DNA of 32,346 nt, taken from assembly GCA_947167135.1 (NCBI GenBank), contig CAMVGV010000031.1:1-32346 (forward strand), written 5' to 3'. Within the stretch, counting starts at the first letter, position 1. Every line of letters starts with the position of its first letter. Below are positions 25,894-30,356 of the stretch, piece after piece. Source of the DNA: an uncultured Lachnospiraceae bacterium. GTDB taxonomy: Bacteria > Bacillota > Clostridia > Lachnospirales > Lachnospiraceae. The notes beneath the pieces were generated by a model, which saw only the letters and a list, made by a program, of their open reading frames with translations, searched no databases and had not been told where the DNA came from. A program made the translations under genes and the position numbers.

Positions 25894-26391
25894 TCAAAGC
25901 CCGTTTTTCCGTATCTCACCGGCACGCTCTATTATCTTTTCCTTCCAGCTGTCATCCTCGGCATCCAGCTGATAGGTATTATATCCGTACTGTCTGCCCA
26001 TGGAACAGACTATGGATTCATCATCAATATGGAGTGAGATCCTGTACCGGTTCGGAAGCTTCTGCGGAAGTATCTCCTTCCTGTTGCGCTGGACCTCCTT
26101 CAAATGTCTGCTTCCGTTTACGATATCATCGAATTTCACACCGTAAAAAAAGAACAGCATTTTAATATACCGTATGCTGCGGAAGGAGGAGGTATAGATC
26201 CATACCTCATAGCCCATATCCTGGAGTCTGTTGATGAGCTCCGGAGTGCCGAGACGCAGCCTCTCCTTAAATATCCTGTTCAGGGGAAAGGGAAGCGCCG
26301 GTTCTGTCTTGTGGGTTTCCGGTGAAACGAAGAGCACCTCATCCAGATCAAATGAAACGCGCATTTTTCCGCTGTAAGTTTTTTCGCTCAT
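25894..26391 (-). CDS. HAD-like protein, paralog of the adjacent ParB-HAD protein
   Basis: A 165-aa HAD-superfamily protein. Motif I is SFDLDEVLF (Asp15, Asp17), motif II lies in VWIYTSS (Thr67) and motif IV is HIDDES (Asp123, Asp124), so the catalytic set of a small phosphatase is present. It aligns along its length with the C-terminal half of the upstream neighbour, for example FKERLRLGTPELI versus FKERLRLGIPALF and YEVWIYTSS versus YDIWVFSAD. The start ATG 26391 overlaps the neighbour's stop (ATGA), implying translational coupling; the longer frame to 26430 would run inside the neighbour. The substrate is unknown. It converges on the YitT gene. Confidence 0.7.
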   Translation of the reverse strand: MSEKTYSGKMRVSFDLDEVLFVSPETHKTEPALPFPLNRIFKERLRLGTPELINRLQDMGYEVWIYTSSFRSIRYIKMLFFFYGVKFDDIVNGSRHLKEVQRNRKEILPQKLPNRYRISLHIDDESIVCSMGRQYGYNTYQLDAEDDSWKEKIIERAGEIRKNGL

Positions 26392-27248
26392 TTCAGCTTT
26401 TCTACCACGGCAATGACCTCCTTTGACCATTCTCCGGAGGAGCCGCTTAATGGATACTCATTAAACTCTTTTGTACGGCTGAAGGTCTGTATCAGCATAT
26501 CCCGGTCTATATGAATGGTCTCGCCGTATTTCTTGGACACGAGGGTTTCAATCTCTTTTTTCTCCGCTGTTTTTTTCGCATTTTTTTTGCCGGTACCGGT
26601 TACAACTCCGTCAACCCGGGCATTGTATCTCTTAAAGAAGGACTGGAGGTAGTCGGTCGAATAATAGTCGGCAGAAAAGACCCAGATATCGTAGCCCTTT
26701 GTATTCAGGTAGTGAAAGAGCGCGGGTATGCCGAGCCGTAATCTTTCCTTGAAATAGAGCCCTGCCGGGAAGCCAAGTGCTTTTTCGGAAGCTTCATTTT
26801 CACGGGAGCAGAACACAACCTCGTCCAGATCGAAGGTCACTCTCTTTTCCTGGTCTGAGGCTGCCAGCATCTTCCTGATATCGTCTATGGTAGTGGGATT
26901 CACTATTTCCACAGGGATCTTTTTAATTCCGCATTTCAGGGCGGCAAGCCATCTGTGATGCCCGTTAAGAATAAGGTAACCGTCAGGATGCATTTTTTCC
27001 ACGGTGAGAGGCTCCATGGAGCCGGGGTCACGTCTGAAGCTGCTCTCATATTTGGAAACAATCGAAAAGGAAGGACCTACGGAAGGGATACAGAATTCAT
27101 CATCGGGGTTTGGATGGAGCTTTCCCGCCGGAACCTTTTTCACCAGCAGACGTTCAAGAAAACCGGCCTTTACGGATACGGCGATGCCCTCGTACTTCTT
27201 TACCTCTTCGTATATGAAATCCTCTTCCTTTGTCCGTGAAGCTGCCAT
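26388..27248 (-). CDS. ParB/Srx-like domain fused to a HAD-like domain
   Basis: A 286-aa two-domain protein. Residues about 35-120 look like a ParB/sulfiredoxin-fold domain: VPAGKLHPNP, then MEPLTVEKMHPDGYLILNGHHRW (motif GHHRW at 96-100) and LAALKCGIKKIPVEIV. In this fold the motif binds nucleotide, and relatives include ParB CTPases, sulfiredoxin and free-serine kinases (SerK/SbnI). Residues about 135-286 are HAD-like with TFDLDEVVF (Asp140, Asp142) and a weaker motif IV, HIDRDM. The start ATG 27248 has GGGGGTGGG upstream; the open frame to 27437 runs into the repeat element and is not used. Its -10 sits at the edge of the MITE. Function unknown. Confidence 0.7.
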   Translation of the reverse strand: MAASRTKEEDFIYEEVKKYEGIAVSVKAGFLERLLVKKVPAGKLHPNPDDEFCIPSVGPSFSIVSKYESSFRRDPGSMEPLTVEKMHPDGYLILNGHHRWLAALKCGIKKIPVEIVNPTTIDDIRKMLAASDQEKRVTFDLDEVVFCSRENEASEKALGFPAGLYFKERLRLGIPALFHYLNTKGYDIWVFSADYYSTDYLQSFFKRYNARVDGVVTGTGKKNAKKTAEKKEIETLVSKKYGETIHIDRDMLIQTFSRTKEFNEYPLSGSSGEWSKEVIAVVEKLK

Positions 27249-27300
27249 TATACCCACCCCCTTCAGGAAAACAGAATTGCAAAAACCTTTAAGTAATGAA

Positions 27301-27309
27301 ATTATACCA
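27301..27309 (-). promoter_or_regulatory. Extended -10 promoter for the HAD gene pair
   Basis: On the minus strand the sequence reads TGGTATAAT, about 53 bases before ATG 27248. It overlaps the left 7-bp flanking repeat of the MITE, so the -35 region of this promoter is MITE sequence. Confidence 0.55.
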
Positions 27310-27390
27310 TGATTCGGACGCCAAAAGTACTGAATCACTGTTTTGATACAACGAATTGCTCCGTTGCTTTCAGCAACTCTCGCAATAACG

Positions 27391-27448
27391 GGGCATTGCC
27401 GCGCATGGCGCGTCAAAACATGCCCGAAAACGTCCACTGGACGTTTTT
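27391..27448. repeat. Hairpin module copy A in the MITE
   Basis: Stem 1: GGGCAT/ATGCCC (27391-27396 and 27420-27425) enclosing TTG.CGCGC/GCGCG.CAA. Stem 2: AAAACGTCC-ACT-GGACGTTTT (27427-27447), with A- and T-runs on both sides, so it could act as a bidirectional terminator. Confidence 0.8.
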
Positions 27449-27576
27449 CCTACAAAACTCGCAATCCGCTAATTTATACTCAGTAACGTAAATAACTGCC
27501 AGTATCAAAACGGTATAACGAGCAAACGCAGTTAATTGCGTTTGCGAGTATACTACGTAAATTGCTACTTGCGACG

Positions 27577-27635
27577 GGGCACTGATGCGCTCAGCGCATC
27601 AAAGCGTGCCCGAAAAATGTCCACTGGACATTTTT
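27577..27635. repeat. Hairpin module copy B in the MITE
   Basis: Stem 1: GGGCAC/GTGCCC enclosing TGATGCGC-TCA-GCGCATCA, all perfect. Stem 2: AAAAATGTCC-ACT-GGACATTTTT, ten perfect pairs. Relative to copy A the stems change on both sides together (T-A to C-G, C-G to T-A), so pairing is kept while sequence drifts. Confidence 0.8.
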
Positions 27636-27788
27636 CCATGTTGTTTGACGCCCAAAGTCAAATGGCTTTTTGAACAAGTTCAAACGCCATTTAGACTTTT
27701 GGCGTTTGTATCATACCATTTTTTTCTGTAAACTGCCATTGAGGTGATTAAGAAGCGAATTTCTATGTATTATTTCTGTTTCTCAGTG

Positions 27789-27794
27789 TATAAT
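27789..27794 (+). promoter_or_regulatory. -10 box placing the start point at the kinase ATG
   Basis: TATAAT ends seven bases before ATG 27801. The expected start point is the A of the ATG itself or within a base or two, leaving no room for a ribosome site. The -35 region is weak. Confidence 0.45.
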
Positions 27795-27800
27795 GGATAG

Positions 27801-30356
27801 ATGGTCAGGATAATCGGAACGGAAACTCTGCTTCATATTTCATTCAGTCTGGCGGCACTGGTCTTCAGTGTGGTTCTTTATATTCTTGTCTGTGCCCTGG
27901 GAAGCGGTCAGCAGCATAAGAACCTGAAGTTCAGAACCTTTGCCGTTACCATCGTTATAGGCAATTCCCTAAGTATCCTTGACAATATTTTCAGAGATGC
28001 GGGTATATATCCGACTCCTTACTGGATACAGCTCAGTCTCCTGCTTCTGGTGTATCTTGCAAATATCCTTTTGACTTATTATATGGCCCTCTATATGGAG
28101 GGTTTTTTCGGGGAATTCAAGCTGAGAAAGCTTTTCTTTAAGATCAATACATGCATTGTTGTTTCCGGCGTCGCGTTGACCGTATTCGTATTTTTCAGGC
28201 AGCTTTGTATGTTTGACGGAGAAATGATACTGTCGACCGTATCGGTCTTTGACAGGTTGATCTTAGGTTACGTGTATGAGCTGTACTATCTTTTATATTC
28301 GATAACATTGTTCATCATATTCAACGGGAGGATAAGCCCGCGTGCAAGGATGACATCGGTCGCGGCATTTTTGGTCGCCATAGGTGCCGTTCTGTTCGAG
28401 AGCCTTAACACTCTGGGATTGGGAAGCGGTATACTGTACAATTATTTCGGAGCGGTTCTGGCTCTCTATATTTTCTATATCGGCGTGGAAACACCGGATT
28501 ACAGGAACCTTTTGAAGTCCCTTACGGATCTGGATATGGCAAGACGTGCGGCAGATGAAGCCAACCATTCAAAGTCGGATTTCCTTGCAAATATGTCTCA
28601 TGAGATACGGACGCCGATCAATGCGATCCTCGGAATGAATGAGATGATATCCAGGGAGGCTGAGGATGACACTATACTCACCTATTCCGAAAACATTGAA
28701 AATGCGGGAAAAACACTTCTGGGACTTGTCAATGATATTCTTGATTTTTCAAAAATAGAGGCAGGAAAGATAGAGATACTGCCTGCGGATTATGATCTTT
28801 CCGTATGCTTAAATGACCTTGTAAATATGATAGCAGACCGTGCGGAGAAAAAGGGTCTCCTTTTAAATCTGGATTTTGACAGGAGACTGCCGAGATTTCT
28901 GAGGGGCGATGAAGTACGGGTAAAGCAGGTCATAACGAATATTCTGACCAATGCCGTAAAGTATACGGAAAAGGGCAGTGTCTCCTTCAGCATCGGCTTT
29001 GAAAAAACAGAGCGTCCTGACAGCGTCCTTTTGAACGTATCAATAAGTGATACCGGAATAGGGATAAAGAGTGAGGATCTTCCGAAGCTTTTTTCCGAAT
29101 TTGAGCGTATAGAGGAAAAGAGAAACCGGAATATAGAGGGTACCGGCCTCGGAATGAGTATTACGAAAAGGCTTCTGGAGCTTATGGGCTCCACCTTAGA
29201 GGTTGAAAGTGAATACGGTAAAGGTTCCAACTTCCATTTCTCCCTGGAACAGAAGGTCGTTTCCTGGGGAGAGCTCGGAGACTATGAAGCAACGTACCGG
29301 GATCATCATGCGGCCCACAAAAAATACAGGGTAAGATTCTCGGCGCCGGAAGCCAGTGTGCTGGTTGTTGATGACAATCATATGAATCTTATGGTGTTTA
29401 AGAGCCTTATCAAGAAAACAGGGATAAAGGTTGACACAGCCGAAAGCGGGGATGTGGGTCTTGAACTTGCTGCAGAGAAAAAATATGATGTGATCTTCCT
29501 CGACCATATGATGCCGAAGAAGGACGGAATAGAGACTTTGAGGGAACTGAGACAGGACAGGGAAGGACCGAATAATCATACGCCGGTTGTCTGCCTAACC
29601 GCAAATGCCATATCGGGGGCAAGGGAGCAGTATATGGAGGAAGGGTTTGAGGATTATCTTTCAAAGCCCATTGATTCGGAAGAGCTTGAGAACATGCTCT
29701 TAGATCTTATCAGTAAGGAAAAGATAAAAAGTACCGCGGAAACAGAGGAACAGCAGGACTTACTTCCGAGGGAGCTTTCCCTTCTTTCCGGCTTTCAGGT
29801 GGATATCAAAGAGGGAATAAAAAACGGAGGGGGCATTGAGGAGTATTTATCTGTTCTCGATACCTTTTCGGAGACCCTGGATTCCAGGATAGATGAGCTG
29901 GAGCGGTTTTATGATGAAGGAGATACGAAGGAGTATACGATAAGGGTTCATGCGCTAAAAAGTTCCCTTAGGATAATCGGTGCAAAGGAAAGGGGAGAAA
30001 GGGCACAGCTTCTGGAGAACGCGGGAAAGGCCGGCGATATGGCCTTTATCCGGGAGCATCACGCCGGCTTTATAAGGGAGGTTCTCAAGCTTAGGGAGCC
30101 GCTTTCCGGGATTTATAAAATGAACAGGAAGGGCAGCGCTGAAGCGCCGGAGGCCGGTACGGACTTTCTAAAGGAAATTTACGGAAAGATAAGAACAGCC
30201 GCCGGGGAATACGATACAGAGAAGCTTGATGAAATCTTTGAAACAATGAAAGGGTACTCACTTCCCTTAAGTGAGGAAGAGCGCTTTAATAAAATAAAGA
30301 ACGCGTACGGACAGCTGGATTACGAATTGATACTTTCCACCCTTGACGAAGGCTGA
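27801..30356 (+). CDS. Hybrid sensor histidine kinase with REC and HPt domains
   Basis: An 851-aa phosphorelay protein. Residues about 10-235 hold roughly seven TM helices, a membrane sensor. HisKA follows with FLANMSHEIRTPINAILGMNE (His267), then an HATPase domain with ILTNAVKYTEKG (N box), ISDTGIGIKSEDLPKLFSEFERIE (G1/F) and GTGLGMSITKRLLELMG (G2). A receiver domain starts near 512 (VLVVDDNHMN, phospho-acceptor Asp568 in IFLDHMMP, later VCLTANA and YLSKPI). A C-terminal HPt domain has His717 in VHALKSSLRIIG. So it can autophosphorylate and pass phosphate to a separate response regulator, not encoded here. The codon before ATG 27801 is an in-frame stop, so the start cannot lie further upstream, yet no ribosome site is seen. 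Confidence 0.92.
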   Translation: MVRIIGTETLLHISFSLAALVFSVVLYILVCALGSGQQHKNLKFRTFAVTIVIGNSLSILDNIFRDAGIYPTPYWIQLSLLLLVYLANILLTYYMALYMEGFFGEFKLRKLFFKINTCIVVSGVALTVFVFFRQLCMFDGEMILSTVSVFDRLILGYVYELYYLLYSITLFIIFNGRISPRARMTSVAAFLVAIGAVLFESLNTLGLGSGILYNYFGAVLALYIFYIGVETPDYRNLLKSLTDLDMARRAADEANHSKSDFLANMSHEIRTPINAILGMNEMISREAEDDTILTYSENIENAGKTLLGLVNDILDFSKIEAGKIEILPADYDLSVCLNDLVNMIADRAEKKGLLLNLDFDRRLPRFLRGDEVRVKQVITNILTNAVKYTEKGSVSFSIGFEKTERPDSVLLNVSISDTGIGIKSEDLPKLFSEFERIEEKRNRNIEGTGLGMSITKRLLELMGSTLEVESEYGKGSNFHFSLEQKVVSWGELGDYEATYRDHHAAHKKYRVRFSAPEASVLVVDDNHMNLMVFKSLIKKTGIKVDTAESGDVGLELAAEKKYDVIFLDHMMPKKDGIETLRELRQDREGPNNHTPVVCLTANAISGAREQYMEEGFEDYLSKPIDSEELENMLLDLISKEKIKSTAETEEQQDLLPRELSLLSGFQVDIKEGIKNGGGIEEYLSVLDTFSETLDSRIDELERFYDEGDTKEYTIRVHALKSSLRIIGAKERGERAQLLENAGKAGDMAFIREHHAGFIREVLKLREPLSGIYKMNRKGSAEAPEAGTDFLKEIYGKIRTAAGEYDTEKLDEIFETMKGYSLPLSEEERFNKIKNAYGQLDYELILSTLDEG

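Follow-up and report, generated by a model that had tools for sequence, protein, structure and literature searches.

Genomic context and organization of the element

The stretch of DNA analyzed here, referred to as the window, comprises the 32,346 nucleotides of contig C31 in the draft genome (2.9 Mb in 119 contigs) of an uncultured Lachnospiraceae bacterium. A 402-bp mobile element occupies positions 27311..27712, with its RNA sense on the minus strand, and lies between two divergent genes. On its left is a minus-strand gene pair formed by the gene at 26388-27248, whose product shows a ParB_N profile match just below the cut-off, and the gene at 25894-26430, with HAD-type profile matches below the cut-offs. 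The closest named relatives of the 26388-27248 product belong to Lachnospiraceae RUG14895 (97% at the amino acid level) and AD3010 (91%), and its start was taken as the ATG at 27248, which is kept in the relatives at loci L091 and L092. On the right, a hybrid histidine kinase gene is encoded on the plus strand (27801-30356).

The element is flanked by two copies of the 7-bp target-site duplication ATACCAT (27304..27310 and 27713..27719), both read from the sequence; the left copy corresponds to the single ATATCAT of an empty site described below (L226). End comparison placed the 18-bp terminal inverted repeats at 27311..27328 (plus strand, GATTCGGACGCCAAAAGT), on the side of the RNA 3' tail, and at 27695..27712 (minus strand, GATACAAACGCCAAAAGT), coinciding with the RNA 5' end. 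The two repeats match at 15 of 18 positions. When the region 27100-27900 was shuffled 1000 times with its dinucleotides preserved, the best inverted repeat beside an exact 7-bp direct repeat reached 13 of 18, and did so once. No ORF of at least 80 amino acids lies wholly within the element; a GTG-started frame of the neighboring minus-strand gene enters it, up to position 27437. The initial annotation, which described this block (27304-27719) as a complete-looking miniature inverted-repeat transposable element (MITE) enclosing no gene, was exact in its ends, its ATACCAT flanks and its length, and the delimitation is further backed by related copies and by the empty site in the genome G011.

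The same annotation had placed the left duplication inside the promoter of the gene pair, and indeed positions 27304-27306 are shared with a TATAAT read directly at 27301..27306 on the minus strand. An extended -10 is readable both with the element (TGn-TATAAT in the window) and without it (TGn-TATACT in G011), so the effect of the element on the expression of its neighbors may, judging from these sequences, be small. A TATGAT that spans the junction of element and right duplication (27710..27715, minus strand) reads into the RNA, but it is a consensus match within chance, being the one promoter-like site found in a scan where 1.5 were expected.

Sister copies and inserts

With the window element as query, 70 matching pieces were found in its own genome, and with the 205-bp core copy of contig C22 the number was 43. 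Contigs C22, C3, C4 and C76 carry uninterrupted, near-complete copies, and C95, C87 and C7 larger ones. Further copies with different 7-bp flanks, which had been proposed as a check on the MITE, were thus sought and found: the duplications read ATCAAAT in C22 and C3, ATAATAT in C4, ATTACCT/ATTACAT in C76, ATATTAT in C95, AAACAAT in C87 and ATATAAT in C7, and the prevailing target form is ATNNNAT.

Comparison with the 205-bp core revealed three inserts in the window copy, all given here on the plus strand, which the initial annotation had overlooked together with the RNA content described below. Insert 1 (27387..27449) is a dispersed double-hairpin repeat of about 63 bp (ACGGGGCA...GTCCACTGGAC...) with copies elsewhere. 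Insert 2 (27477..27550) consists of 74 bp, TACTCAG...GCGAGTA, placed between two TA dinucleotides, and has imperfect inverted ends with 25-nt arms that are 80% complementary. Insert 3 (27573..27638) is a second copy of the hairpin repeat and is also present in C87, C7 and C95. The copy in C95 has the second hairpin repeat only, those in C87 and C7 have the TA-flanked insert as well, and the window copy has all three. Since the copies differ in insert load, movement went on after the interruption.

Among the loci of the own genome that were read, the hairpin repeat (CGGGGCACTG...GTGCCCGAAAAATGTCCACTGGACATTTTTCC) was seen at 21 places outside the element copies, where it often adjoins CATCCTGAGCGAAGCGAAGGATC repeats (L012, L025-L043). 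At both sites in the window it replaces one to three bases of the core and makes no duplication. Another locus (L024, from contig C72 in G000) holds at 183-254 a near-perfect 72-bp palindrome with the right transposon end closing both arms, located between a TATAAT and an apparent gene start and lacking a clean duplication.

Clostridiales-1 RNA in the element body

The initial annotation did not recognise the family of the element. Its ends and its MITE nature were real, yet the body could be named after all, as it belongs to the Rfam family Clostridiales-1 (RF01699). By BLAST mapping of the core, the interrupted RNA body of the window (27344..27713, minus strand) corresponds to positions 36-204 in the 205-bp copy that has no inserts. 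The window copy itself gave one weak minus-strand match to RF01699 (27344-27507), which at 21.7 bits stays below the cut-off of 48, because the inserts break the RNA. The copies of C22, C3, C4 and C76, in contrast, cover the whole 166-position model with 112.8-120 bits. In the own genome 20 of the 25 RF01699 matches are above the cut-off; such matches were found in 41 of 48 genomes of the genus and in 30 of 196 genomes sampled from the order, and in none of 14 control genomes.

The core folds on the RNA strand with -79.9 kcal/mol (z -7.9) and the opposite strand folds equally well (z -10.7), so that folding energy cannot identify the strand. Covariation was analyzed in 35 diverse copies. Double-sided changes occurred in 26 of the 28 internal pairs, a set that excludes the outer helix meeting the transposon ends. 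In the internal helices 93.6% of the cells were paired, against 70.8% after shuffling and at most 44.7% with slid partners, and their covariation score was 0.607 against 0.198 for the shuffled alignments; the tested structure had been predicted from the same alignment, which gives it an advantage over its slid versions from the outset. Further pair types, one of five covariation measures, stayed at chance level (52 against 48.7, with 64 of 500 shuffles as high). These comparisons support the Clostridiales-1 cargo as a base-paired RNA. As the covarying pairs exclude the outer helix at the transposon ends, they are most simply read as the mark of a real RNA.

Boundaries of the RNA and of the transposon

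The relation between RNA and transposon ends was studied in 119 RNA copies from 31 genomes, of which 76 are from eight genomes of the same genus and 43 from other genera; they were hand-picked from the best-scoring rows, so the fractions given here are not population estimates. An exact duplication of at least 7 bp beside matching ends was found in 39 of the 76 same-genus copies, whereas in 200 rounds in which right sides were exchanged among the copies the average was 1.4 and never more than 4 were counted. Twelve of the 43 copies from other genera also had a duplication, all of them in G143, G070 and G240. In the widest search, 53 of the 119 copies lay inside elements bounded by ends and duplications. 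Nucleotide 2 of the RNA model was the left transposon end in 49 of these 53, and the right end was located 15-34 nt past the RNA, again in 49, while in two copies it was the RNA end itself. The copies fall into three or more subfamilies that differ in their ends and share the type of duplication, and at L058 and L060 a member of one subfamily sits, with duplications, inside the end of another.

Empty sites and reuse of targets

The flanks of twelve copies were joined, and eight of the joins were searched in 48 genomes, those of C3, C7a, C47 and C42 being left out because of other repeats in their flanks. An empty orthologue was found in the genus for six of the eight sites, the window site included. 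The C22 site is empty in G003 (293 of 300 positions identical), and so is the C95 site, with a single-base difference in the target word. The C4 and C87 sites correspond to single-copy targets in G037 and G003, and the C20 site, whose two duplication copies differ by one base, is empty in G037, G003 and G011, where the sequence around the target is slightly changed. For the C2 join, flank matches without an aligned junction were obtained in the 48 genomes, and for C7b no match spanned the junction.

An empty site had also been named as a check for the window itself, and the search for one succeeded in contig C132 of G011, from the same genus, which bears a single ATATCAT, one base off ATACCAT. 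The identity of 183 out of 260 aligned positions makes G011 a fairly distant relative. With several copies bearing their own duplications and with empty sites at hand, the identification as a MITE stands.

In G037 a short remnant belonging to another subfamily (L224) sits at the window site, and in G011 the ATAATAT word of the C4 site is taken by a member of a different subfamily, inserted in the opposite orientation (L225). Two tested target words are thus occupied by other subfamilies, which indicates that targets are reused. It is less likely that the G037 remnant represents an ancestral element later exchanged for the window copy.

RNA-less derivatives and the search for a transposase

Some derivatives lack the RNA core. 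G034 contains a 112-bp derivative of this kind, with 16 right-part and seven left-part pieces listed; it was read whole at two loci, with the duplication ATCAAAT at L230 and no clean fit at L229. In G240, a 47-bp element has the duplication ATTGATAT (L303). As these RNA-less forms have multiplied, the ends seem to be enough for movement.

We looked for a full-length insertion sequence (IS) with the 18-bp ends, as the initial annotation had suggested, by scanning G000, G024, G240, G001 (a bare count of 206 places) and G143 for the end pattern, and none was found in the places searched. An autonomous partner was absent from all end-pattern places of G024 and G240, from the best 100 of 144 places in G000, which include all those with no or one mismatch, and from the part of the 97 places in G143 that was read; nor was a transposase gene with these ends seen at the places that show the end pattern in two nearly closed genomes. 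Reading outward from single ends led only to further miniature derivatives or ordinary genes.

A derivative of the IS256 family was rejected because Transposase_mut (PF00872) matched in only two of eight carrier genomes (G024 and G031) and was absent from the carriers G000, G003, G001, G004, G240 and G143. An origin from an IS6/IS240-type element was likewise discarded, as DDE_Tnp_IS240 (PF13610) matched in two of 13 carrier genomes, in one of them below the cut-off.

G024 contains a 1.86-kb IS (L305, L307 and L309) with a 487-amino acid frame matching PF13610, PF03050 and rve_3. Its ends are GGTAGTGTCAAA and GATAGTGTCAAA, and the two copies with listed ends show 8-bp duplications. The resemblance of these ends to those of the G240 elements is loose only.

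Among viral contigs, one end pattern occurred at 15 loci, and at none of them was there a partner end that matched well and also came with a duplication; the window-type end had no match. A plasmid search gave no match either.

Copies without duplication and alternative explanations

No duplication was detected in 66 of the 119 copies by the widest search (68 by a narrow one), and some of the RNA family may therefore be old or have another way of spreading. It has a little less than an even chance, in our estimate, that the wider family leads two lives, an old RNA fixed after genes and, among some members of f1, the family of the window, a later capture by a transposon, a view that is compatible with the MITE explanation. 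In its favor, the duplication-bearing copies come from 11 genomes and all belong to f1, whereas those without duplication come from 29 genomes and several families. An upstream same-sense frame ends between -10 and +5 nt from the RNA start in 29 of the 68 copies without duplication against seven of the 51 with it. This points the same way, but the rule behind it (80 open codons) is crude. An RNA starting with TGA can itself end the frame, and many copies of both kinds start with TGA. The copies, moreover, were taken non-randomly from the best-scoring rows and some are near-identical, and duplications decay in old insertions, so that apparently fixed copies may just be old. The distribution suggests that the copies without duplication could be a sedentary form placed after genes.

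Ordinary recombination might also have duplicated a multi-copy non-coding RNA gene, the inverted ends being merely the outer helix (P1) of the RNA. The 5' strand of P1 does coincide with one transposon end, and P1 pairing persists in the 68 copies without duplication, where 458 of 476 P1 positions pair (null mean 272) in spite of 43 different 5' strands. However, this leaves unexplained the exact 7-bp duplications that vary by copy, the empty sites in which the target word stands once, the second end usually 15-34 nt past the RNA, and the spread of derivatives with the same ends and no RNA core. We hold this explanation to be very improbable, and a simple duplication of an RNA gene was rejected on account of the target duplications and empty sites. 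The strong folding of both strands would suit movement through a folded single strand in the style of REP or IS200/IS605 elements, to which the faintest of probabilities is given in view of the 7-8 bp duplications and matching inverted ends. REP and IS200/IS605-type systems are not known to make target duplications, and single-strand transposition was rejected in view of the duplications and empty sites.

Proposed origin and role of the element

The block in the window is very probably a MITE with Clostridiales-1 RNA as cargo, moved in trans, and broken in its present copy. This is a joint judgment on the MITE with its ends and targets, which are seen in the copies themselves, and on the transposase and the arrival after the split from G011, which we infer. 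The element is a non-autonomous DNA transposon whose 18-bp ends have the form GATnCnnACGCCAAAAGT and which duplicates 7-8 bp at its targets, AT-rich words that mostly read ATNNNAT; a putative end-recognising transposase would act on it in trans. The cargo is the Clostridiales-1 RNA, the 5' end of which doubles as one transposon end, and on its 3' side a short tail holding the second end is usually added. The window copy would have arrived after the split from G011, to judge from the empty site. Its lineage apparently gained a hairpin repeat and then the TA-flanked insert, and the window copy one more hairpin repeat, so that its RNA is broken.

An intact, transcribed RNA would serve as a structured untranslated region acting in cis, and by analogy with BOX, RUP and other bacterial MITEs it probably does so when co-transcribed. 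At the window site, with a broken copy placed between divergent genes, little RNA function is expected. There the element is probably a nearly neutral passenger, which would split the promoter region while the extended -10 is kept. More tentatively, and rather against our expectation, RNA and transposon could form one evolved unit in which the outer helix is the transposon end, the RNA pays its way by stabilising or insulating transcripts, end specificity and RNA helix change jointly, and the copies at stop codons have been domesticated as 3' untranslated regions.

The host is a relative of rumen Lachnospiraceae, and the mobile element would help to explain the spread of Clostridiales-1 in this group. 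If many RF01699 copies are transposon cargo, their copy number, their patchy spread and part of the covariation of the outer helix would be accounted for, and a function should be sought among mobile elements and in untranslated regions. The case also shows that an RNA family discovered through covariation can be a mobile unit, and the combined test of duplication and empty site is applicable to orphan Rfam families.

Comparison with known systems

MITEs are by definition short and devoid of genes. Those of bacteria are described as having inverted ends and stably folding transcripts and as lying between direct repeats at AT-rich intergenic targets (PMC10969869), and the present element agrees with this description, as far as the consulted part of that source goes, in its inverted ends, its direct repeats at AT-rich targets and its strong fold; it is also short and lacks a gene. 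Unlike MITEs in general, its core belongs to a covarying RNA family that had been described independently and occurs without such ends too. In QMITE2 of Coxiella burnetii the direct repeats measure 7-9 bp, the core 113-145 bp and the ends 23-29 bp, and small RNAs have been reported from QMITE1 and QMITE2 (PMC10969869). Compared by description only, QMITE2 resembles our element in duplication length but its ends are longer (23-29 against 18 bp), and the consulted passages of that paper on both QMITEs make no mention of Rfam. In Streptococcus pneumoniae, BOX, RUP and SPRITE are small, strong-folding repeats, BOX being modular, that are co-transcribed as operon extensions and are thought to be mobile parasitic elements according to the consulted part of PMC3049150. 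They belong to a different host and were again compared by description; unlike BOX modules, the inserts of the window element are separate dispersed repeats.

In the 2010 table of Weinberg et al. (PMC2864571), Clostridiales-1 is listed for Clostridiales and the human gut as probably an RNA ('y') and not cis-regulatory ('n'). The sister copies match the full model of that family, and whereas its line in the table is silent on mobility, many copies here are bounded by ends and duplications. None of the literature matches listed ties RF01699 to transposons or MITEs, in a search that covered subscription papers only in small part, and no function for RF01699 was met among the matches listed. An RNA family as the cargo of a MITE may be new, although the matches listed are weak evidence for this.

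Clostridiales-1 sequences were also seen in other settings. At L234 (G000, contig C7, 34300-35300), two near-identical Clostridiales-1 RNAs stand in tandem directly after an apparent tRNA 3' end, with no duplication or transposon ends recognised by eye. Three human faecal scaffolds labelled 'Bacteriophage sp.' (L107, L108 and L109, in H1-H3), unannotated, bear a partial match to the RNA part of the core.
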